In this document: positions 2,043 through 50,594 of the stretch, one piece after another | Position numbering within the stretch: position 1 is the stretch's first letter | Layout of the letters: each line of letters begins with the position of its first letter | Source of the DNA: a virus | IMG/VR virus record: IMGVR_UViG_3300048837_000350 | Coordinates: 1 to 56,972 of that record | DNA: 56,972 bases | Strand: one strand, 5' to 3' | Position numbers and translations under genes: made by a program | The notes under the pieces: model-generated | Told to the model about the DNA's origin: nothing | Databases searched by the model: none | The model's input: the letters and a program-made list of their open reading frames with translations, nothing else

Positions 2043-2051
2043 GGCATAATA
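2043..2051 (+). promoter_or_regulatory. Late promoter-like element GGCATAATA
   Basis: One of nine copies of GGCAYMATA found ahead of late plus-strand genes. The CATAAT core ends eight bases before the GTG at 2059 and there is no Shine-Dalgarno sequence, so the message would be essentially leaderless. Confidence 0.55.
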
Positions 2052-7166: not shown

Positions 7167-7374
7167 CATAACGCAATCACAAGCTGCTGCGCTATTACAA
7201 TCATTTACTGCTGTTGTAATAGCGTTCACCGCTGACATCACTGAGGAGCAGTCGATTGCTCTCCTAGGATTATCCGCAGTGATAGGCGGAATCCTGATGC
7301 ATAGTGACGCGAAGATTCGTAAGGCTCGGAATAAGCGATTGTCTGGGCAGAATACTACTCAGAACGACGAGTAG
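7153..7374 (+). CDS. Putative holin
   Basis: The 73-residue protein has two hydrophobic segments (around residues 10-27, LLQSFTAVVIAFTADI, and 33-48, IALLGLSAVIGGILM) and a strongly basic, polar tail (KIRKARNKRLSGQ). Its size, membrane topology and position immediately before an M15 endolysin fit a small holin that would permeabilise the inner membrane. It overlaps the preceding gene by 14 bases; a second ATG at 7159 is an alternative start. The family is not recognisable by motif alone. Confidence 0.6.
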   Translation: MKMPNITQSQAAALLQSFTAVVIAFTADITEEQSIALLGLSAVIGGILMHSDAKIRKARNKRLSGQNTTQNDE

Positions 7375-21881: not shown

Positions 21882-22157
21882 ATGAGCAAGAGCGGTAGGA
21901 GTAGGAGGAGAATCAATAGCCGCCGCAGGAGATCGCGAAACACATTCGTCTACGAGTATTGGGAATGGAAGTGCGCTTACTGTGGAGTGGAGATCACTGC
22001 TGGCGATGCGAATAAAGTCACAGACAAGACGGCAACGATAGATCACATAGTGCCGATCTCTATGGGCGGAGAGAACACGCTAGAGAATATCGTCGCATGT
22101 TGCCGCAAGTGCAACTTCGTTAAAGACAACGATCATCCAGACGATGCGTTCCTATAG
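21882..22157 (+). CDS. HNH endonuclease
   Basis: The 91-residue protein has a very basic N-terminus (RSRRRINSRRRRSRN) and a canonical HNH domain: CAYC (31-34), ATIDHIVP (D54-H55), GGENTLENIVACC with N69, and CRKC (74-77). The small stand-alone form is common in phages, either as a homing nuclease or as a packaging helper near terminase; here it is far from terminase. Ribosome site weak. Last gene of the rightward replication run; it ends against the sigma-like gene. Confidence 0.8.
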   Translation: MSKSGRSRRRINSRRRRSRNTFVYEYWEWKCAYCGVEITAGDANKVTDKTATIDHIVPISMGGENTLENIVACCRKCNFVKDNDHPDDAFL

Positions 22158-22874
22158 TGACATCACGCGCTGAAGCTCGAGCGTAGCCTTCTCGACTAGA
22201 TCCTTAGCAGCGTTCGCGCTCACACCCAGCACGCTACCAATCTTCGGATACGAGTGAGCTTCCCCGCCCCACAATCCGTAACGCATAGCGAGTACGCGGA
22301 TCATGTCATCGTTACCATCCTCAGTCATCTGCAGCATCGCGGCATCCATGCGATCCATGATGTCGAATAAGTATGTGGGATAGTGCGCGTCATTATCGTC
22401 ACGCATGTTCACGTCACTATCAACAAGCGGCAATGGAGTGACAGACTTCGCAAGCTCTTTCGCAAAGTCCTTGTCACCGGACTCCCACGCGCTTAGGAAG
22501 ACATGAGCCTTGGCTGCTCCGTTAGTTAAGTCTCGAGCAGCGCTCCTGCGGATCTCCGCATACACGAAGCTGAAGCAGTACGTCGTAGGATTACCGGGTA
22601 TCTTCTCGAGCTTGATACGTCCCATGCTGTGCAGTAGGCCAGTCATGCCAGCTTGGAAGAGATCCTCGAATGGTGTACTCACTGCTCCGCTTCGACACCA
22701 CTTCACTACGCACGCAACAACCATCTTCGAGTTGCGTATGCTGAACTCTTCCCACGCACGCTTGTCACCCTTGAGGTAGCGCTCTACTAGCGCTCGAGAC
22801 TCATCAAGAGTAGGCTTGCCGCCCATCCTGTCGGCCTCTTCCATGATCGCTATGACCGACTCCGGGATAATCAC
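22152..22874 (-). CDS. Sigma-70 family-like factor
   Basis: The 240-residue protein looks like a divergent sigma factor. The region-2-like part contains CVVKWCRSGAVSTPFEDLFQ and AGMTGLLHSMGRIKLEKIPG, then SFVYAEIRRSAARDL. The region-4-like end has LAMRYGLWGGEAHSYPKIGS followed by a helix-turn-helix VLGVSANAAKDLVEKATLELQ. If active, it would redirect host RNA polymerase to phage promoters, with the repeated GGCATMATA late element as an obvious candidate target. It converges on the HNH gene with a six-base overlap and is coupled to the gene upstream. The match is by pattern; activity is inferred. Confidence 0.65.
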   Translation of the reverse strand: MIIPESVIAIMEEADRMGGKPTLDESRALVERYLKGDKRAWEEFSIRNSKMVVACVVKWCRSGAVSTPFEDLFQAGMTGLLHSMGRIKLEKIPGNPTTYCFSFVYAEIRRSAARDLTNGAAKAHVFLSAWESGDKDFAKELAKSVTPLPLVDSDVNMRDDNDAHYPTYLFDIMDRMDAAMLQMTEDGNDDMIRVLAMRYGLWGGEAHSYPKIGSVLGVSANAAKDLVEKATLELQRVMSL

Positions 22875-23098
22875 TTAGGAGCCTTGGCCTTGGCTGCCTC
22901 GACCTTGTCCTTCACATACTCGAGATTACGAATGTGATTCAGGACCGTGCGATTAGCGAAGCGCATAGCGGCTACACCTTCATCGACTTTGTCGGTGTCT
23001 TCCTTGTCCTTGTACTCAGCCATGACATCAATCATGCTGCGTAGGATTTCGGAGTGTTCCCGCGCATTGGCTATGAGCCGGTCTATATCTTCAGTCAT
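22871..23098 (-). CDS. Small coiled-coil protein coupled to the sigma-like gene
   Basis: The 75-residue protein is almost wholly helical (DIDRLIANAREHSEILRSMI, then LNHIRNLEYVKDKVEAAKAK). The ATG at 23098 has GGGGGAT as ribosome site; its stop overlaps the sigma-like start. A partner or anti-sigma role is conceivable from the coupling only. Confidence 0.55.
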   Translation of the reverse strand: MTEDIDRLIANAREHSEILRSMIDVMAEYKDKEDTDKVDEGVAAMRFANRTVLNHIRNLEYVKDKVEAAKAKAPK

Positions 23099-23159: not shown

Positions 23160-23381
23160 ATGATGCCAAACGACTCAGACATACTCAGGGCATGCCTCAC
23201 GCTATGCGGATTGGGTGTCGTACGCTTCGCTGAAATAGTGGGAGTGTCGAAGACTCAAGCAGAAATGATGACGCTTGGAGTATGCGAGATACCAGAAGAA
23301 GTGTGGGAGAAACTCGATGCCGGTCTTGGAGTTGTGGAACAAGTACGCAGTAGCGCACGCGCTGGGACTGAAGGACGCTAG
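23160..23381 (+). CDS. Small HTH-like protein
   Basis: The 73-residue protein has a helix-turn-helix-like pattern (VVRFAEIVGVSKTQAEMMTL) and then an IPEEVWEKLDAGL helix. It starts at ATG 23160 (or 23163) with no ribosome site, directly after a divergent spacer, so it may be leaderless. It overlaps the next gene by 65 bases. Probably a small regulator. Confidence 0.5.
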   Translation: MMPNDSDILRACLTLCGLGVVRFAEIVGVSKTQAEMMTLGVCEIPEEVWEKLDAGLGVVEQVRSSARAGTEGR

Positions 23382-23808
23382 CCGCGTCGTACACTCCAAG
23401 ACTTTCCCCGAACCAGCGTATAGGAGTGGGCGCTCGAGCCTGTGGCACTCGGCAGAAGTAACGCTATGGGCACGACAAAACAACCGAACGGTTGTGGATG
23501 AGAAAGATTGGCCCGGACCAGACGAGGAGCATCTAGCGCTGAAGTGGTGGCGCAGGATCTACTTCATGGATGTGAAGCGACGCGCAAAGATCAGGCTAGG
23601 CTTGGTAGAAGACTTGAAGCCAGCGCAGACGTTCGAGAAGAATCGTCAGAACCTATTAGCGCAGAGCGATGAGCGGGCAATCATCGCCCTGCGCAGACTC
23701 GTGATTGCTCGAGTCGGTATCAGTAATGGATCATTCGTAGCAGCGTACGAGCTACTCAGCGGTACTGTGTTTACGCTTCCGAGCTTGCCGCCTGATCTCG
23801 TAGAGTGA
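23317..23808 (+). CDS. Winged-helix protein, excisionase/AlpA-like N-terminus
   Basis: The 163-residue protein opens with LWNKYAVAHALGLKDASRVV followed by FPEPAYRSGRSSLWHSAEVT, the layout of a short winged helix in which the wing reads the DNA (AlpA/Xis/MerR style). The rest is helical and basic. ATG 23317 has GGGAG as ribosome site. Since no integrase is visible, a transcriptional or DNA-architecture role is more likely than excision. It converges with the minus gene at 23752. Confidence 0.55.
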   Translation: MPVLELWNKYAVAHALGLKDASRVVHSKTFPEPAYRSGRSSLWHSAEVTLWARQNNRTVVDEKDWPGPDEEHLALKWWRRIYFMDVKRRAKIRLGLVEDLKPAQTFEKNRQNLLAQSDERAIIALRRLVIARVGISNGSFVAAYELLSGTVFTLPSLPPDLVE

Positions 23809-24291
23809 CTCGAGCGCTTCCCATACTGGGCGGAATCCACGGAGTGGTTGATCTTCGCGCCTATCCCCACCAGTCCTATCATCACGCCCGAACATTACTA
23901 AGCGTAGTTCACCGGCCACACTCCTGCCTACTCCTAGGTATGTAGCGATCTCTCCGACGCGTGGTACGCGCCCAAGGCTAGTAGCTAGGGTTCGTATCTC
24001 GATCAAGCGATTGATGTTGATAGAATCGTTTACAGCCTGCCTACAGTGGAAGCAGTGCCCACTCTCATTGTCTCGCGGAATGGCCGTGCCGCATGCGCAG
24101 CGTGTAGCACTCATGTGATTGCGATTGATTGCACGCTTACGGGTAGGGCGGGGATTGCGTAGGTAGTAGCTGTTGACTACGTTGAGGCTAAGGCCAGTCT
24201 CGGTAGCGATCTCTTGTGGAGTGTAGTCGCAGTCGTGTAGTCGATGCACTTCATCCCACGCATCCATGCTTGTCTTGATTTCAGTCTTCAT
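23752..24291 (-). CDS. HTH-zinc ribbon-HTH protein
   Basis: The 179-residue protein has an N-terminal helix-turn-helix (DYTPQEIATETGLSLNVVNS), a zinc ribbon (CACG followed by CFHC) and a second helix-turn-helix (VGEIATYLGVGRSVAGELRL). Two DNA-binding units around a zinc ribbon indicate a DNA-binding regulator or primase-like accessory. ATGA coupling to the upstream microprotein. Last gene of the clamp operon; overlaps the converging plus gene by 57 bases. Confidence 0.6.
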   Translation of the reverse strand: MKTEIKTSMDAWDEVHRLHDCDYTPQEIATETGLSLNVVNSYYLRNPRPTRKRAINRNHMSATRCACGTAIPRDNESGHCFHCRQAVNDSININRLIEIRTLATSLGRVPRVGEIATYLGVGRSVAGELRLVMFGRDDRTGGDRREDQPLRGFRPVWEALESLYEIRRQARKRKHSTAE

Positions 24292-24431: not shown

Positions 24432-24604
24432 TACTCGCTCACCCTCTCGATGTCGGTCACGAACCTATCGTGATTAAGGTTGATTGATACGCCTCGCTCT
24501 ATCTTCTCTGCCTTGTGGTAAGAGTGCGGCCCCATCCTGCGTACCTCTGCGTACTCTCCGTCGATCTCCTCCGAGATCACTACGTAGTAGTTGTCATCGC
24601 TCAT
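24431..24604 (-). CDS. 57-residue microprotein downstream of the clamp
   Basis: The frame begins MSDDNYYVVISEEIDGEYAE and ends INLNHDRFVTDIERVSE. The start overlaps the clamp stop (ATGA), so its expression is tied to the clamp. Beta-then-helix pattern, acidic. It could bind the clamp, but no clamp-binding motif is obvious. Confidence 0.6.
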   Translation of the reverse strand: MSDDNYYVVISEEIDGEYAEVRRMGPHSYHKAEKIERGVSINLNHDRFVTDIERVSE

Positions 24605-25713
24605 GCTGGCAACCTTACTGGCATCAAGATAGCCTGTCGTCGTGGACTATCAATACTCGAGAAGAGCAGCGGCCTATTCGTAACCGCGTGATACCCAAGC
24701 TCGCAACCACCACCCATGAACTCGAGACAATCAATAGCGAACTCACAGTTCACGCCAGTAGTAACGTCTTCCTCGCCATGCGTTCGACTAACCAGATGAC
24801 CAGACGTATGCGACGGCCCGTCTTGTACGGTCACGCCTAACGATAGTCTGGTGCTATGCGTCGAATGATTGATTGACATCCTTACCGGACTGTTGCGCAT
24901 GTTCAGTTTATTCATGAGCTTCAAGCTCTCAAGCATGTCGCTGACCGTGCCGTCAAGGATCTCGAGCGTCTCGGTCACTGGAGGACGCAGCCTGTCATAG
25001 TCAGGATACTGTCCCTCGATGTTGCGTAGATGCAAGGTGAATCCCTCGCCGACAAGCGTCGTGTACTTGCAGTCCTTGTCGTAGTAGACGCACGATAACT
25101 CAGTCATGGTTGCGACTGATACCGCTGGCAGTATCACGCTGAAGTCCACGCTCTTGCCAAGCTCTGTAAAGTCGCACGCCATACGATACGAGTCTGTGGC
25201 CGTGACACGCAGCGCTCCGTCTTGTGATCGAAGATTAACTCCAGTCAGCACAGGGCGTGACATATCAACGCTAGCGAACTTGGATACAGCCTTGATCACT
25301 GGCATGGGATTGCCAAGCATGCTCGTCATCGTGTTCTTGTTACGCTTGGGCAAGTCCAAGGTTGGCCAGTCTGATAGCTCGAACGTGTTGATGCCAGTAT
25401 TGCCGATGCGACTCGCAACCAGTAGCTCGTCTTCAGCACCAAGCAACATGACGACGGAGTCCTTAGCCTTCAATGATGAGAGCAGCTTAGACAGTGTGCG
25501 TGAGTCTGCGATGACATCACAGTCAAGACCAGTGTCGATCTCGACTACAGCATAGGCTTCCATGTTAGTGGCCTCAATAGTCTTCGGTGTGATCTTCACG
25601 CCGTAGAGGACTTGGATACTGGACTTGTGCTTCGTTGCCTTGAGAACACGGGAGAGCGCGTCCTTTAGTTCTTTGACTGGTACTGATCTCTTTGTCTTTG
25701 TGGCAGTTGCCAT
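24601..25713 (-). CDS. dnaN: DNA polymerase sliding clamp, DnaN-like
   Basis: The 370-residue protein has the three-domain length of a bacterial beta clamp. Domain 1 includes DCDVIADSRTLSKLLSSL. Domain 2 has VTATDSYRMACDF, the counterpart of ATDGHRLA, and the EGQYPDYDRLRPP segment. The C-terminus RPLLFSSIDSPRRQAILMPV corresponds to the usual ...YVLMPM ending. A clamp tethers polymerase to DNA. No phage polymerase is visible, so it presumably serves, or competes for, the host enzyme. Ribosome site AGGAAGG; it lies in a long leftward operon. Confidence 0.85.
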   Translation of the reverse strand: MATATKTKRSVPVKELKDALSRVLKATKHKSSIQVLYGVKITPKTIEATNMEAYAVVEIDTGLDCDVIADSRTLSKLLSSLKAKDSVVMLLGAEDELLVASRIGNTGINTFELSDWPTLDLPKRNKNTMTSMLGNPMPVIKAVSKFASVDMSRPVLTGVNLRSQDGALRVTATDSYRMACDFTELGKSVDFSVILPAVSVATMTELSCVYYDKDCKYTTLVGEGFTLHLRNIEGQYPDYDRLRPPVTETLEILDGTVSDMLESLKLMNKLNMRNSPVRMSINHSTHSTRLSLGVTVQDGPSHTSGHLVSRTHGEEDVTTGVNCEFAIDCLEFMGGGCELGYHAVTNRPLLFSSIDSPRRQAILMPVRLPA

Positions 25714-27696: not shown

Positions 27697-27725
27697 ATCT
27701 TAGCGTGCTTGTCGGACGCTGTCAA
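27697..27725 (-). promoter_or_regulatory. Strong sigma-70-type early promoter
   Basis: On the minus strand a perfect TTGACA (27720-27725) is separated by 17 bases from TAAGAT (27697-27702). The -35 box overlaps the stop codon of the clamp-like gene at 27722. The core GGGTTGAYAGCGTCCGACA is shared with the promoter at 29740-29768. Confidence 0.8.
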
Positions 27726-28642
27726 CCCTTGTGTCGAATCGGCATGCACAATCCCATGATCACGTCGCCAGTAGGTGAGTGGAATGTAATCGGCTTGAGC
27801 GGGCCAGTCGTGCCAACGATAGCCCACGGCATAGCCTTCTCCATGTTGCGCATGTACTCGCCGTTCGCGTAAACAGCGTAGCCGGACACCGACAACCTGA
27901 TCATATGCTTCGTAGTCTTGGTGGCCTCAAGGTCGATAGCCGTGTCCATGACGCAGCCGATATGCTCAAGCTCAAACGTGGCCCGTGTGCGCTCGCCCTC
28001 CATCAGCATGTGCAGGTTAGGGATAGGACGCCCAGTCTGGCACGCGTACATGACTAGCACGCCAGCCTTCTGCGACACTGCAACGAGGATGTCCTGCCGT
28101 AGCATCGGCAAGTCTCCGTCACGCAGATGCGCAACCTGCAAGTCTCCCAGCATAGTCTTCGGCAAGTCCACTAGCATGCGCCCGATGTTGTCGTAGTCCT
28201 TCGGCGCTCCGTAGCGAATCATGCTATAGCTATCGGTCACGTATATGAACCCGTCAGTGACGTGCCCGGTTGCAAGCACGTCATCATGACCGCGCACCTT
28301 CCGCTCATTCTTCACGATCTCCTTCGCGCCGGGTAGCTCCAGCTTGCGCGGAGACGTAAGTCCGATACGGTCTAGGTTATCCATGATGTGATCGAACGCG
28401 GCCAATGTGACAGCGTCACAATCGAACATGACCATGCCGCTAGTCTCGCCGTTACACTCGGACAGCGGCACGATAGCGCACGTGGCAGGATGTGAAGAGT
28501 AGCTGTACTTACTCGCCTTCACTGCAACATACCCGCCGGGTACCATGATGCTCTCACCGCTGACGCTCTGCCGCCCGCCCGTGATTCGCCGTGCGTATGC
28601 TTGCATGGACTTGGTTACTGGTGTTTTCGTTTGCGTTGTCAT
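27722..28642 (-). CDS. Second sliding-clamp-like protein (divergent DnaN fold)
   Basis: The 306-residue protein aligns by motif with the dnaN product 2 kb away. FDCDAVTLAAFDHIMDNL corresponds to DCDVIADSRTLSKLLSSL. GFIYVTDSYSMIRYG corresponds to LRVTATDSYRMACDF, and TGRPIPNLHMLMEGE to EGQYPDYDRLRPP. PITFHSPTGDVIMGLCMPIR corresponds to LLFSSIDSPRRQAILMPVR. It is about 60 residues shorter, so loops or part of domain 1 are reduced. It could be an alternative or decoy clamp, a clamp-binding inhibitor, or a subunit of a mixed ring. Ribosome site GGAG, spacing eight. The relationship is inferred by eye. Confidence 0.6.
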   Translation of the reverse strand: MTTQTKTPVTKSMQAYARRITGGRQSVSGESIMVPGGYVAVKASKYSYSSHPATCAIVPLSECNGETSGMVMFDCDAVTLAAFDHIMDNLDRIGLTSPRKLELPGAKEIVKNERKVRGHDDVLATGHVTDGFIYVTDSYSMIRYGAPKDYDNIGRMLVDLPKTMLGDLQVAHLRDGDLPMLRQDILVAVSQKAGVLVMYACQTGRPIPNLHMLMEGERTRATFELEHIGCVMDTAIDLEATKTTKHMIRLSVSGYAVYANGEYMRNMEKAMPWAIVGTTGPLKPITFHSPTGDVIMGLCMPIRHKG

Positions 28643-36914: not shown

Positions 36915-36960
36915 GGTCACACGGACTTCGATTAGTGGTCACACGAGTGTCGGCACAATA
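36915..36960 (+). promoter_or_regulatory. Late promoter-like element GGCACAATA with upstream direct repeat
   Basis: GGTCACACG occurs at 36915-36923 and again at 36937-36945, 22 bases apart (two helical turns). GGCACAATA follows at 36952-36960 and the ATG at 36967 comes seven bases after the core. There is no Shine-Dalgarno site. The direct repeat could bind an activator or repressor at the head of the late operon. Confidence 0.55.
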
Positions 36961-39317: not shown

Positions 39318-39328
39318 ACGAAATAAAC

Positions 39329-39403
39329 GAAACCCCCGCCAGAGCGAGGGTCGCGTCATGATTCTGATTGTTATGTAGATCAGATCGAGGGTTTCTTGTT
39401 TTT
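39329..39403. terminator. Bidirectional terminator region between terL and the HD gene
   Basis: For minus-strand transcripts, ACCCTCGC and GCGGGGGT (39344-39351 and 39332-39339) form an eight-pair stem followed by TTCGTTTATTT. For plus-strand transcripts, GAAACCC (39329-39335) can pair with GGGTTTC (39389-39395), followed by TTGTTTTT. A further perfect hairpin, GCGGGAG/CTCCCGC, lies at about 39407-39432. Confidence 0.65.
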
Positions 39404-39454
39404 ATGCGGGAGACTTATACGGCGCTCCCGCGACTGTTACCGCTTTCCTCCGTG

Positions 39455-40087
39455 TTACCACGTTACGAGGGAAGGCTTAGTCTCTGCAGGCTCTGGGTCG
39501 AAGACTCCATCGAGCCTTGCTGCTCGCTCGATCATTGCTGTTGCCAATGCGTGTGCGTGGCTAATGAAATGTCCGGGCCTACCGAACGCTTCAAGCACGT
39601 GATCCAAGCATCGACCATATGCTCCGCATTGCTCTGGGAAGTATTGTGGTGCTGCGTGTCCACATATCTGAGCTTCTGTGGCTACCGCTGCTTTGTCTGC
39701 AACCTCAACGTCTTCCCACGCATCGTCAGACATGAAGTAGTAGTCGAAGCGTGCATCGTCCAGTTCGAGTTCTTTTCGTAGGCTGTCGATGATCTTCAAG
39801 CATAGTTGATGTTCTAGTTGTGACTGCTCGTCGGTCTTCCATGTTCCGACACAGTCACCAACGATTGCTTCCGCTGCATCGTGTAGTAGTCCGAGGAGTG
39901 CGAATCGTGGATTACATAGATACGATACGAAGATGCTGTGTTCCGCGACGCTGATCTGGTCTTCCGTCTGCCCAGCGAAGCGGATGATCGCGGAGAGTCC
40001 TCGAGCGACGTCTTCTAGTGTAGGCATTTCTCCTGTGTGACGAGCGTCTACTTCTGGGAATACTGCTTTACCTGAGTATGTAATCAT
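39455..40087 (-). CDS. HD-domain phosphohydrolase (YfbR-like nucleotidase)
   Basis: The 210-residue protein matches HD-superfamily nucleotidases: H50 in VAEHSIF, H69-D70 in LLGLLHDAAEAIVGD, and a later D in VADKAAVATEAQ. YfbR-type members remove phosphate from deoxynucleoside monophosphates and can tune dNTP pools. In the late module it is the only minus-strand gene, and its start (AGGAAGG ribosome site) is only 31 bases from the divergent start at 40119. This divergence suggests an inserted accessory gene with separate timing. Confidence 0.75.
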   Translation of the reverse strand: MITYSGKAVFPEVDARHTGEMPTLEDVARGLSAIIRFAGQTEDQISVAEHSIFVSYLCNPRFALLGLLHDAAEAIVGDCVGTWKTDEQSQLEHQLCLKIIDSLRKELELDDARFDYYFMSDDAWEDVEVADKAAVATEAQICGHAAPQYFPEQCGAYGRCLDHVLEAFGRPGHFISHAHALATAMIERAARLDGVFDPEPAETKPSLVTW

Positions 40088-40103: not shown

Positions 40104-40112
40104 GGCATAATA
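40104..40112 (+). promoter_or_regulatory. Late promoter-like element GGCATAATA
   Basis: Embedded in a GCGGC-ATAATAG-GCCGC inverted repeat. The core ends seven bases before the ATG at 40119, no Shine-Dalgarno is present, and the divergent HD gene starts at 40087. Confidence 0.55.
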
Positions 40113-40540: not shown

Positions 40541-40819
40541 GTGAGCGAACAGGAGCAAACCATCGTGCAGCTACTCCTCCTCTCTGATGGGGATCATGGG
40601 GTTGTGTGCGAGAAGCTTGGCGTGGACGAGAGTGATGTGGAGCAGGCGTGGCTCAGGTTGTATGGCGACGCTCCGCCAGTCTTGCGTCGTAACCGTAGCT
40701 TAGTGTGTCAGTGGCATCGCGCTCAAATGATTCGTAATCGCGCTACAGCGAGTGGAGACTTGCGGGCGGAAATGAAAGCCGAGGAGCTACTGCGTAGACT
40801 CTTGGCCGGGCGCGTGTAG
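40541..40819 (+). CDS. Small HTH-like protein between DUF1360 and portal
   Basis: The 92-residue protein has a helix-turn-helix-like N-terminus (TIVQLLLLSDGDHGVVCEKL; GVDESDVEQAWLRLYG) and a basic helical C-terminus. GTG start with an AAGGATTAGG-type region upstream. A DNA-binding accessory in packaging is possible; not recognised. Confidence 0.5.
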   Translation: MSEQEQTIVQLLLLSDGDHGVVCEKLGVDESDVEQAWLRLYGDAPPVLRRNRSLVCQWHRAQMIRNRATASGDLRAEMKAEELLRRLLAGRV

Positions 40820-40834
40820 GCAGGATATTAGAGC

Positions 40835-42127: not shown

Positions 42128-42164
42128 GGCCCGCCTCCGGTTCTAGCCTTCCGGGGGGCGGGCC
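42128..42164 (+). terminator. Terminator hairpin after the portal gene
   Basis: GGCCCGCCTCCGG (42128-42140) pairs with CCGGGGGGCGGGCC (42151-42164) with one bulge, followed by TTCTTATT. The next late promoter-like element begins nine bases downstream. Confidence 0.75.
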
Positions 42165-42172
42165 TTCTTATT

Positions 42173-42181
42173 GGCATCATA
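42173..42181 (+). promoter_or_regulatory. Late promoter-like element GGCATCATA
   Basis: CATCAT ends seven bases before the ATG at 42188 and no ribosome site is present, giving a leaderless protease mRNA. Directly follows the post-portal terminator. Confidence 0.6.
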
Positions 42182-43177: not shown

Positions 43178-43202
43178 ACGCCCCCGGCTTGTCTGGGGGC
43201 GT
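43178..43202 (+). terminator. Terminator hairpin after the protease gene
   Basis: ACGCCCCC (43178-43185) pairs with GGGGGCGT (43195-43202), followed by TCTTATGT. The late promoter-like element starts 11 bases downstream. Confidence 0.75.
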
Positions 43203-43213
43203 TCTTATGTGGC

Positions 43214-43222
43214 GGCATAATA
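43214..43222 (+). promoter_or_regulatory. Late promoter-like element GGCATAATA
   Basis: The context GTGGCGGCATAATAC is identical to that before the tail protein gene at 47123. Unlike other copies it leaves a leader of about 40 bases, with AAGGA upstream of the capsid start. Confidence 0.6.
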
Positions 43223-46756: not shown

Positions 46757-47083
46757 ATGGGTGTTTGGATTGCGCATTGGACTAAGAATGGTCCTCTTGT
46801 TAAAGACCGCGAGATTGTTCGCCTTGATGGTAGTGGATTGTCTACGCGTATTGTCGAGGATGTCGTCGTTGGCGATAAGCGCTTGAAGCCTACTAGCGCT
46901 AAGGGCGCTGATCATGCTGTGTTCAAGCACGATTCTGGCCTACTTGTCGCTCTCAAGGCTGGTCACGCGTATACGGTTCGTAGTGGTGATGCTGTGCTTG
47001 AGACTGATGTTCTAACAAAGCACACGCTCGTGCCAGCGCCCGGCCCTGATCCAGAGGTCACCGCTGTAGTAGTGGCGGCATAA
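46757..47083 (+). CDS. 108-residue head-region protein
   Basis: The protein is beta-rich and small (MGVWIAHWTKNGPLVKDREI; HAVFKHDSGLLVALKAGHAY), ATG with GGAG upstream. Its last codons (GCG GCA TAA) lie within the late promoter-like element of the tail protein gene. Possibly a small decoration or connector-type protein; not identified. Confidence 0.5.
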   Translation: MGVWIAHWTKNGPLVKDREIVRLDGSGLSTRIVEDVVVGDKRLKPTSAKGADHAVFKHDSGLLVALKAGHAYTVRSGDAVLETDVLTKHTLVPAPGPDPEVTAVVVAA

Positions 47084-47085
47084 TA
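47077..47085 (+). promoter_or_regulatory. Late promoter-like element GGCATAATA
   Basis: Overlaps the stop codon of the previous gene. Same 15-base context as before the capsid gene, and a similar leader length with AAGGAC near the ribosome site. Confidence 0.6.
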
Positions 47086-47880: not shown

Positions 47881-47889
47881 GGCATCATA
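47881..47889 (+). promoter_or_regulatory. Late promoter-like element GGCATCATA
   Basis: Follows the tail-protein terminator. The core ends 25 bases before the GTG at 47914, so a short leader is expected. Confidence 0.55.
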
Positions 47890-49131: not shown

Positions 49132-49857
49132 ATGGCTAGGTCTAAGGTTCGCATTGATACTGAGAAGCAGATACTGACGAAGAACTATCGTCCGGGGCAA
49201 GTGCTTGCCGTCATGTCTAAGGACATTGAGAAGCGTGCGGTGAGGCTCGCGCGTACGAATAATGGTAGAGGCTGGGCTTACGATGATCCAGAGAATAATG
49301 TGCGTGGATTCAGTCGCGGTATCACCACTCCTAATGGGCGCTACGCTGCTGGCATTAAGTACAAGCCGGGTAGTGGCGCTCGACCACGAATGGAGTTGAT
49401 AGCTACCGCGAAGCACTCCCAGTATGTTGAGTTTGGTAATGGCCAGAAGGATATTAGGCCCAATCAGAGCTTCAGAAATAAAGCGCTGGCTCCACTGCTG
49501 AAGAAGGCGAGAGAGAACAAGAAGATATACGAAGCTCGCAAGGCTCGTGAAGAGTACATTATTGACAATGGAAAAGGTGAGGCTGTTAAGAACGCGGAGG
49601 ATCGGCTAAGAAAGCTTGAGGATCATTACAAAAAGTGGCTCAAGGATCTTGCGATTAAGAAGAACGCCATCCGCAAGGCTAGGTTCGTACTCAATACTCC
49701 CAACGGGATTGTTGCCCCAGACCGTGTTCGCCCCATGGGTAAGGGTAAGGTTCCCAGTGAAGCGGAGGTTGGCGGGTATGGCACGATTAACCGTGCGATG
49801 CGTACTGCCGTGAAGGAAGCTCGCAGGGATATCAATAGGCGTCGTAGATCGGCATAA
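49132..49857 (+). CDS. Neck/tail-completion protein, HK97 gp10-like
   Basis: From the ATG at 49132 the protein has 241 residues. YVEFGNGQKDIRPNQSFRNK followed by ALAPLLKKARENK matches the gp10-like family signature ('VExGxxxxxPxPfxxPA'). A basic coiled-coil insertion (AVKNAEDRLRKLEDHYKKWL) and a basic C-terminus (KEARRDINRRRRSA) are unusual. A TTG at 49126 is the alternative start. It would help join the tail to the head, located between connectors and tail chaperones. Confidence 0.6.
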   Translation: MARSKVRIDTEKQILTKNYRPGQVLAVMSKDIEKRAVRLARTNNGRGWAYDDPENNVRGFSRGITTPNGRYAAGIKYKPGSGARPRMELIATAKHSQYVEFGNGQKDIRPNQSFRNKALAPLLKKARENKKIYEARKAREEYIIDNGKGEAVKNAEDRLRKLEDHYKKWLKDLAIKKNAIRKARFVLNTPNGIVAPDRVRPMGKGKVPSEAEVGGYGTINRAMRTAVKEARRDINRRRRSA

Positions 49858-49859
49858 TA
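49851..49859 (+). promoter_or_regulatory. Late promoter-like element GGCATAATA
   Basis: Overlaps the stop codon of the gp10-like gene (GCA TAA). A leader of about 36 bases follows, with AGGAG before the TTG at 49895. Confidence 0.6.
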
Positions 49860-50248: not shown

Positions 50249-50586
50249 TACTCTACTCAGTCCTCGTTGATAACTATGCGAGGATCGAGGGGCACTACCC
50301 TACTATCGAGGATCTACTCGACTTATCTAGTCGCCGTGTTTTCAATCTAGTGTTCAACTGGATTTGGGAGAACGTGGACTCTGAGACTTTCGATAAGAAC
50401 TTTGCTGCGCATTTTGATGCGTATCGTCAAGAGCATCATGAGTATCTCGAGGATCGCGATGAGCGTATCAAGACTCAGGTGACTGGTGAGGCCGACATTA
50501 ACATTGTCGTGACGAAGCCTAGTCAGGAGGATGTTGACGAGCTTCTGAGGATGATGGGAGTGAAGCCTGCGGAGGAGTCTGAGTAG
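49895..50586 (+). CDS. Tail assembly chaperone, frameshifted fusion product (G-T type)
   Basis: A -1 shift at CCCTTTA (50230-50236) would join 49895-50236 to the overlapping frame that runs from 50236 to the TAG-containing end at 50586. That yields about 230 residues. The downstream frame continues RERVVLYSVLVDNYARIEGH, then NLVFNWIWENVDSETFDKNF, and has no good start codon of its own near its beginning, so a fusion is the natural reading. A frame-internal GTG at 50350 is less convincing. The interval coordinates ignore the shift. Confidence 0.75.
50230..50236 (+). other. -1 programmed ribosomal frameshift site CCCTTTA
   Basis: In the upstream frame the codons are C-CCT-TTA, a canonical X-XXY-YYZ heptamer. 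After the shift the tRNAs re-pair with CCC-TTT and reading continues AGA-GAA-AGA. It lies 10 bases before the TAG of the short product, as in other siphophage tail chaperone pairs. Confidence 0.75.
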
Positions 50587-50594
50587 GCATCATA
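50586..50594 (+). promoter_or_regulatory. Late promoter-like element GGCATCATA
   Basis: Directly after the fusion-product stop (TAG-GCATCATA). Core ends eight bases before the tape measure ATG, with no Shine-Dalgarno site nearby, giving a leaderless transcript. Confidence 0.6.

Follow-up and report, generated by a model that had tools for sequence, protein, structure and literature searches.

Does a phage that carries a -10-like element without a -35 partner before its late genes also encode the sigma factor that reads it? The question is raised by a minus-strand open reading frame within the window, a single virus record of 56,972 nucleotides. A sequence-only reading had described the product of this frame as a diverged protein of 240 residues resembling sigma regions 2 and 4, and had proposed that it reads a private late element as a late switch. 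A second, identical contig (L002/L022) spans the end and the start of the window with a 4-nt overlap; it joins positions 1 and 56972, which makes this a complete genome of 56,968 bp, circular or circularly permuted. By its gene set this is a siphovirus-like tailed phage: terminase, portal, head protease, capsid, tape measure and minor tail genes run rightward, and the other half of the genome encodes a DnaB helicase, ThyX, an Erf-like annealing protein and a beta clamp. Relatives of TerL and portal are mainly found in actinobacteriophages, at about 23-35% identity, while the 24 kb between 20000 and 44000 gave no DNA-level match in the phage collection. The features discussed below are collected in Table 1.

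Table 1. Positions of the sigma gene, its neighbours and the copies of the late element in the window
Feature	Position	Strand	Remark
Sigma-70-family protein, 240 aa	22152..22874	-	open frame, GTG start; profile, PDB-relative and model evidence
75-aa protein, upstream of sigma gene	22871..23098	-	4-nt overlap GTGA, translationally coupled
Beta sliding clamp (DnaN-like)	24601..25713	-	relevant solely to the speculative T4-like case
Late element GGCATAATA	2043..2051	+	16 nt before GTG 2059
Weaker variant GGCAGAATA	7346..7354	+	38 nt before TTG 7384
Late element GGCACAATA	36952..36960	+	15 nt before ATG 36967 (amidase, then terminase genes)
Late element GGCATAATA	40104..40112	+	15 nt before ATG 40119
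Variant GGCAGGATA	40819..40827	+	16 nt before portal ATG 40835
Late element GGCATCATA	42173..42181	+	15 nt before ATG 42188 (head protease); terminator hairpin directly 5'
Late element GGCATAATA	43214..43222	+	before major capsid gene; terminator hairpin directly 5'
Late element GGCATAATA	47077..47085	+	46 nt before ATG 47123
Late element GGCATCATA	47881..47889	+	33 nt before GTG 47914
Late element GGCATAATA	49851..49859	+	44 nt before TTG 49895
Late element GGCATCATA	50586..50594	+	16 nt before tape measure ATG 50602

The 240-aa protein and its gene neighbourhood

The PHROG 351 profile, annotated as RNA polymerase sigma factor, matches residues 17-238 of the protein with E=1.6e-9, which excludes the outcome, no sigma profile hit, that the sequence-only reading had named as its first refutation. 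The best solved relative is SigF (1l0o_C, E=6e-5, residues 18-123). Pfam Sigma70_r2 (E=0.029) and Sigma70_r4 (E=0.013) match in the correct order and below the Pfam cut-offs, consistent with the "diverged" sigma that had been claimed. Domain 2 displays regions 2.1-2.4, while the helix-turn-helix of domain 4 is recognised by alignment and model, its Pfam evidence being sub-threshold. The nearest sequences are SigF/SigG-like and have the region 2 motifs EDLFQ and EIRR in common with the phage protein. An ECF (group 4) layout, with domains 2 and 4 joined by a flexible linker, would fit, but the profile match is to Sigma70_r4 and not of the Sigma70_r4_2 type; ECF chains match only at E ~0.8 and the nearest sequences are SigF/SigA. 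On these sequence relationships, the 240-aa protein is a sigma-70-family sigma factor.

The structure was modelled with AlphaFold2 from an alignment of 11 sequences, the phage sigma and ten distant sigmas from fetched contigs; the single-sequence prediction was poor (pLDDT 50). The model reaches a pLDDT of ~88 over residues 1-115 and ~85 over residues 176-240, with residues 116-171 mostly at low confidence. It delimits domain 2 (~1-115), a disordered linker (~116-171) and domain 4 (~176-240), and suggests a region 3 that does not fold as a domain. The best Foldseek matches of the model are sigma factors, in the PDB without exception and in BFVD for all the named ones; because the alignment consisted of sigmas, the modelled fold is little independent proof of homology. 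Close relatives were sought in viral_contigs and genome_contigs, and only distant ordinary sigmas were retrieved (L024, SigF-like; L030 and L032, sigma-70-like). No sigma was found in the TerL-related contigs, most of which are fragments. Upstream of the sigma gene there is no clear promoter, and canonical host promoters sought before the early operons were not distinguishable from chance.

The small ORF that had been described as coupled to the sigma gene is present, and its TGA end and the GTG start of the sigma gene lie within a 4-nt overlap. Profile and sequence searches found no homologue or known family of the 75-aa protein, nor was any family detectable when likeness to a small host-sigma inhibitor (gp79-like) was sought. 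It may be a cofactor, like phiEco32 gp79 or T4 gp33, or an anti-sigma. On the plus strand, two small divergent genes (23160-23808) are separated from the sigma operon by 61 bp, in what looks like a regulatory switch region; the second of them matches the DNA-binding family phrog_597. The minus-strand ORF at 23752-24291 encodes 179 aa with two helix-turn-helix-like segments, a zinc-ribbon-like cysteine pattern and weak Sigma70_r3 and r4_2 matches, and is a possible second regulator. At 23167 on the minus strand, ~70 nt upstream of the start of the 75-aa protein, lies GGCATCATG, which could be autoregulatory; near-matches of this kind occur at chance level. Besides, the minus-strand genes 25713, 27663 and 30787 have a near-identical start context, GG(A)AGGCTACATCATG.

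A one-part element upstream of the late genes

The complete genome contains nine copies of the pattern GGCA[TC][AC]ATA, always on the plus strand and always just upstream of late genes. The expected count is 1.6 genome-wide on both strands and ~0.02 in the late upstream regions, observed/expected figures that flatter the pattern since it was tuned on the same sites. In an untuned 7-mer count CATAATA ranks first, with five of its six copies in the genome preceding late genes and none preceding the 55 other genes. Compared with all degenerate 9-mers of like form, GGCA[TC][AC]ATA again has the top count, tied with its own near-variant. Under the looser GGCANNATA the portal site (40819) and possibly 7346 are included as well, and just two copies lie elsewhere. 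Read as a -10 hexamer, the element is CAT(A/C)AT preceded by GG, with C at -12, A at -11 and T at -7. No -35 partner was found upstream of the late elements. A GGGGGC block common to four sites was rejected as a -35 candidate, being the end of a terminator stem; anchoring the motif on CATA gave ragged start-codon spacing, and the GGC anchor was kept, with a spacing of 15-16 nt. The private element that had been proposed at 42173 and 43214 thus lies exactly there and at seven more sites, and its description as -10-like without a -35 stands, the element being strongly non-random and late-specific with no -35 block.

In six genes (36967, 40119, 40835, 42188, 50602 and GTG 2059) the first G of the element precedes the start codon by 15-16 nt and no Shine-Dalgarno sequence is visible, 40835 being preceded by a variant copy. 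The remaining sites have a longer leader, several of them with a Shine-Dalgarno. The short spacing without a ribosome-binding site fits a transcription start 7-8 nt after the hexamer and leaderless transcripts, and the late messages of the six close-spaced genes are, from this arrangement, probably leaderless.

We also followed the element in a related phage, L003, which is 77-99% identical by segment. The five element sites in range are unchanged, including the 40819 variant. At 36952 the element is kept and the flanks have diverged; at 42173 it is kept while the terminator stem is altered by compensating substitutions, and at 43214 it is kept while the terminator tail is altered. Both terminator hairpins (42128-42168 and 43180-43205) adjoin late elements. 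The L003 sequence ends before the sigma region, and no relative was found to combine the sigma with the element. A non-coding-looking stretch 3' of the terminase gene (39325-39480) is better conserved in L003 than its surroundings.

Promoter-recognition residues and the proposed late switch

The residues that set promoter recognition were mapped by hand from alignments, using E. coli sigma-70 numbering. The sigma-70 recognition helix VTRERIRQIE aligns with VSANAAKDLV in the phage sigma, with the replacements R584->A220, E585->N221, R586->A222, R588->K224 and Q589->D225. In sigma-70, R584 and E585 contact specific bases of the -35 (PMC2613000). At position 589 the aspartate is found only in the phage sigma, R, K or Q being present in 10 of 10 comparison sigmas (primary-like or SigF/G-like). 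Region 4 thus appears to have kept its fold and to be blind to the -35, and the loss of the -35-contacting residues agrees with an element that lacks a -35. In region 2.4, Q437 is replaced by A106, T440 by R109 and W433/W434 by S102/F103. C at -12 becomes acceptable to sigma-70 through the substitutions Q437H and T440I (PMC2613000); the change at both positions agrees with an element that has C at -12.

One recognisable sigma, altered at its -35 and -12 residues, and a -35-less element with C at -12 are most simply accounted for by a late holoenzyme. We consider it likely that the phage sigma redirects the host RNA polymerase to -10-only late promoters and so acts as the late-gene switch. The 240-aa sigma would be made from its own small operon with the 75-aa partner and is predicted to bind the host core RNA polymerase via domain 2. 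It would direct the polymerase to late promoters of an extended -10-like form, GG-CAT(A/C)AT-A, with C at -12 and no -35. Domain 4, its fold kept, would probably hold the beta flap of the polymerase while its recognition helix reads no -35, and starts ~7-8 nt past the -10 hexamer would leave several late messages leaderless. In this best explanation we infer the expression timing, the leaderless transcripts, the role of domain 4 and that of the 75-aa protein. The proposal that the sigma reads the late element thus gains support from the residue changes and from the late-specific element, and the two probably form a pair as judged from their sequences. The causal link is one that we infer, since the element may instead be recognised by a host sigma.

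The chief competing account assigns the element to such a host sigma, either one of the group 3 type that recognises a CATA-like -10 or the housekeeping factor using an extended -10, perhaps aided by a phage activator; the phage sigma would then have some other function. Some alternative sigmas of the host could accommodate CATAATA, a -10 of the CATA type being the preference of the sporulation sigmas G, E and K; other DNA-binding candidates are encoded by the phage at 23752-24291 and 23275-23808. However, C at -12 without a -35 makes a poor housekeeping promoter, and the element is strictly late-specific in a phage whose sigma carries the matching residue changes, and we regard this account as unlikely. 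It is distinctly improbable that the sigma manipulates the host by redirecting host genes instead of switching on late ones, as phage sporulation-like sigmas do in Bacillota. The nearest sequences are indeed SigF/SigG-like, and dormancy-altering sigmas of the sporulation-like kind have been described in phages (PMC9429907). Those factors stay close to host sigmas, whereas the 240-aa sigma has lost the standard -35 contacts and belongs to a phage that has a private late element lacking a -35 and whose TerL and portal relatives are mostly from actinobacteriophages, not Bacillota phages.

A T4-like, replication-coupled late transcription, with the sigma, the 75-aa protein as coactivator and the phage sliding clamp as activator, is possible, if poorly supported, and we hold it to be very improbable. 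As in the T4 gp55/gp33/gp45 system, a sliding clamp is encoded by the phage; the DnaN-like gene lies 1.5 kb from the sigma gene on the same strand, and the late promoters of T4 are likewise -10-only (PMC2988020). Every ORF above 450 aa either has an assignment or belongs to the tail segment, so that no DNA polymerase is evident beside the beta clamp in this 57-kb genome. The C terminus of the sigma, QRVMSL, loosely matches the bacterial clamp-binding hexapeptide; but this loose motif is not distinctive, with 14 occurrences in the predicted proteins, and in the sigma these residues just close the region-4 helix. A comparable motif is absent from the 75-aa protein. Moreover, T4 gp55 has no domain 4 and gp33 takes its place, whereas the phage sigma has a domain 4 in the model. 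A second clamp at 27722-28642 (minus strand, 306 aa), suspected from its beta-clamp-like end MPIRHKG, had no profile support and was rejected. That a T4-like switch evolved independently outside the T4 group, with a -35-blind sigma, a small coactivator, a clamp without its own polymerase and leaderless structural messages, is equally very hard to believe.

Comparison with known sigma systems

If the phage sigma does direct late transcription from these promoters, it would represent a further late-sigma architecture, in which a region 4 fold persists without -35-reading residues and one-part promoters also set leaderless starts. Since the protein and the element are short and self-contained, their pairing is directly testable; it could give a compact orthogonal sigma/promoter pair and could help to recognise late promoters in uncultured phages.

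The logic of a phage sigma acting on a single element is proven in phiEco32, where gp36 serves the middle/late promoters tAATGTAtA (PMC8948821). Both systems have a phage sigma on the host core RNA polymerase (here predicted) and a private one-part promoter without a -35 in multiple copies before late genes, with a start 6-8 bp downstream in phiEco32 (PMC8948821), much as proposed here. In contrast, gp36 has no region-4 homology, while here region 4 is present with its contact residues altered; the element and the type of phage are also different and the starts probably leaderless. With region 4 present and its -35 contacts replaced, the phage sigma would work like gp36 without being a member of its family. 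Phage 7-11 gp47 is likewise a late phage sigma with region 4, but its promoters are bipartite (GTAAtg-16-aCTA; PMC8948821), whereas no upstream element is found here. T4 gp55 is also a diverged sigma of -10-only late promoters (PMC2988020), in a phage that encodes its own clamp (gp45), and differs by the missing domain 4; no homology of the 75-aa protein to gp33 was detected. Closest in sequence are the SigF/SigG-type (group 3) factors, including Bacillus phage homologues, from which the phage sigma departs by having no folded region 3 in the model, by its recognition helix (SANAAKD, not SQVQVSR-like) and by the lack of a SpoIIAB-type anti-sigma adjoining its gene. Altogether, the type of strategy, a phage sigma with one-part late promoters, is known, while its form is probably new: region 4 is kept yet seemingly blind, the phage lineage is unrelated, the element is new and the late messages are probably leaderless.
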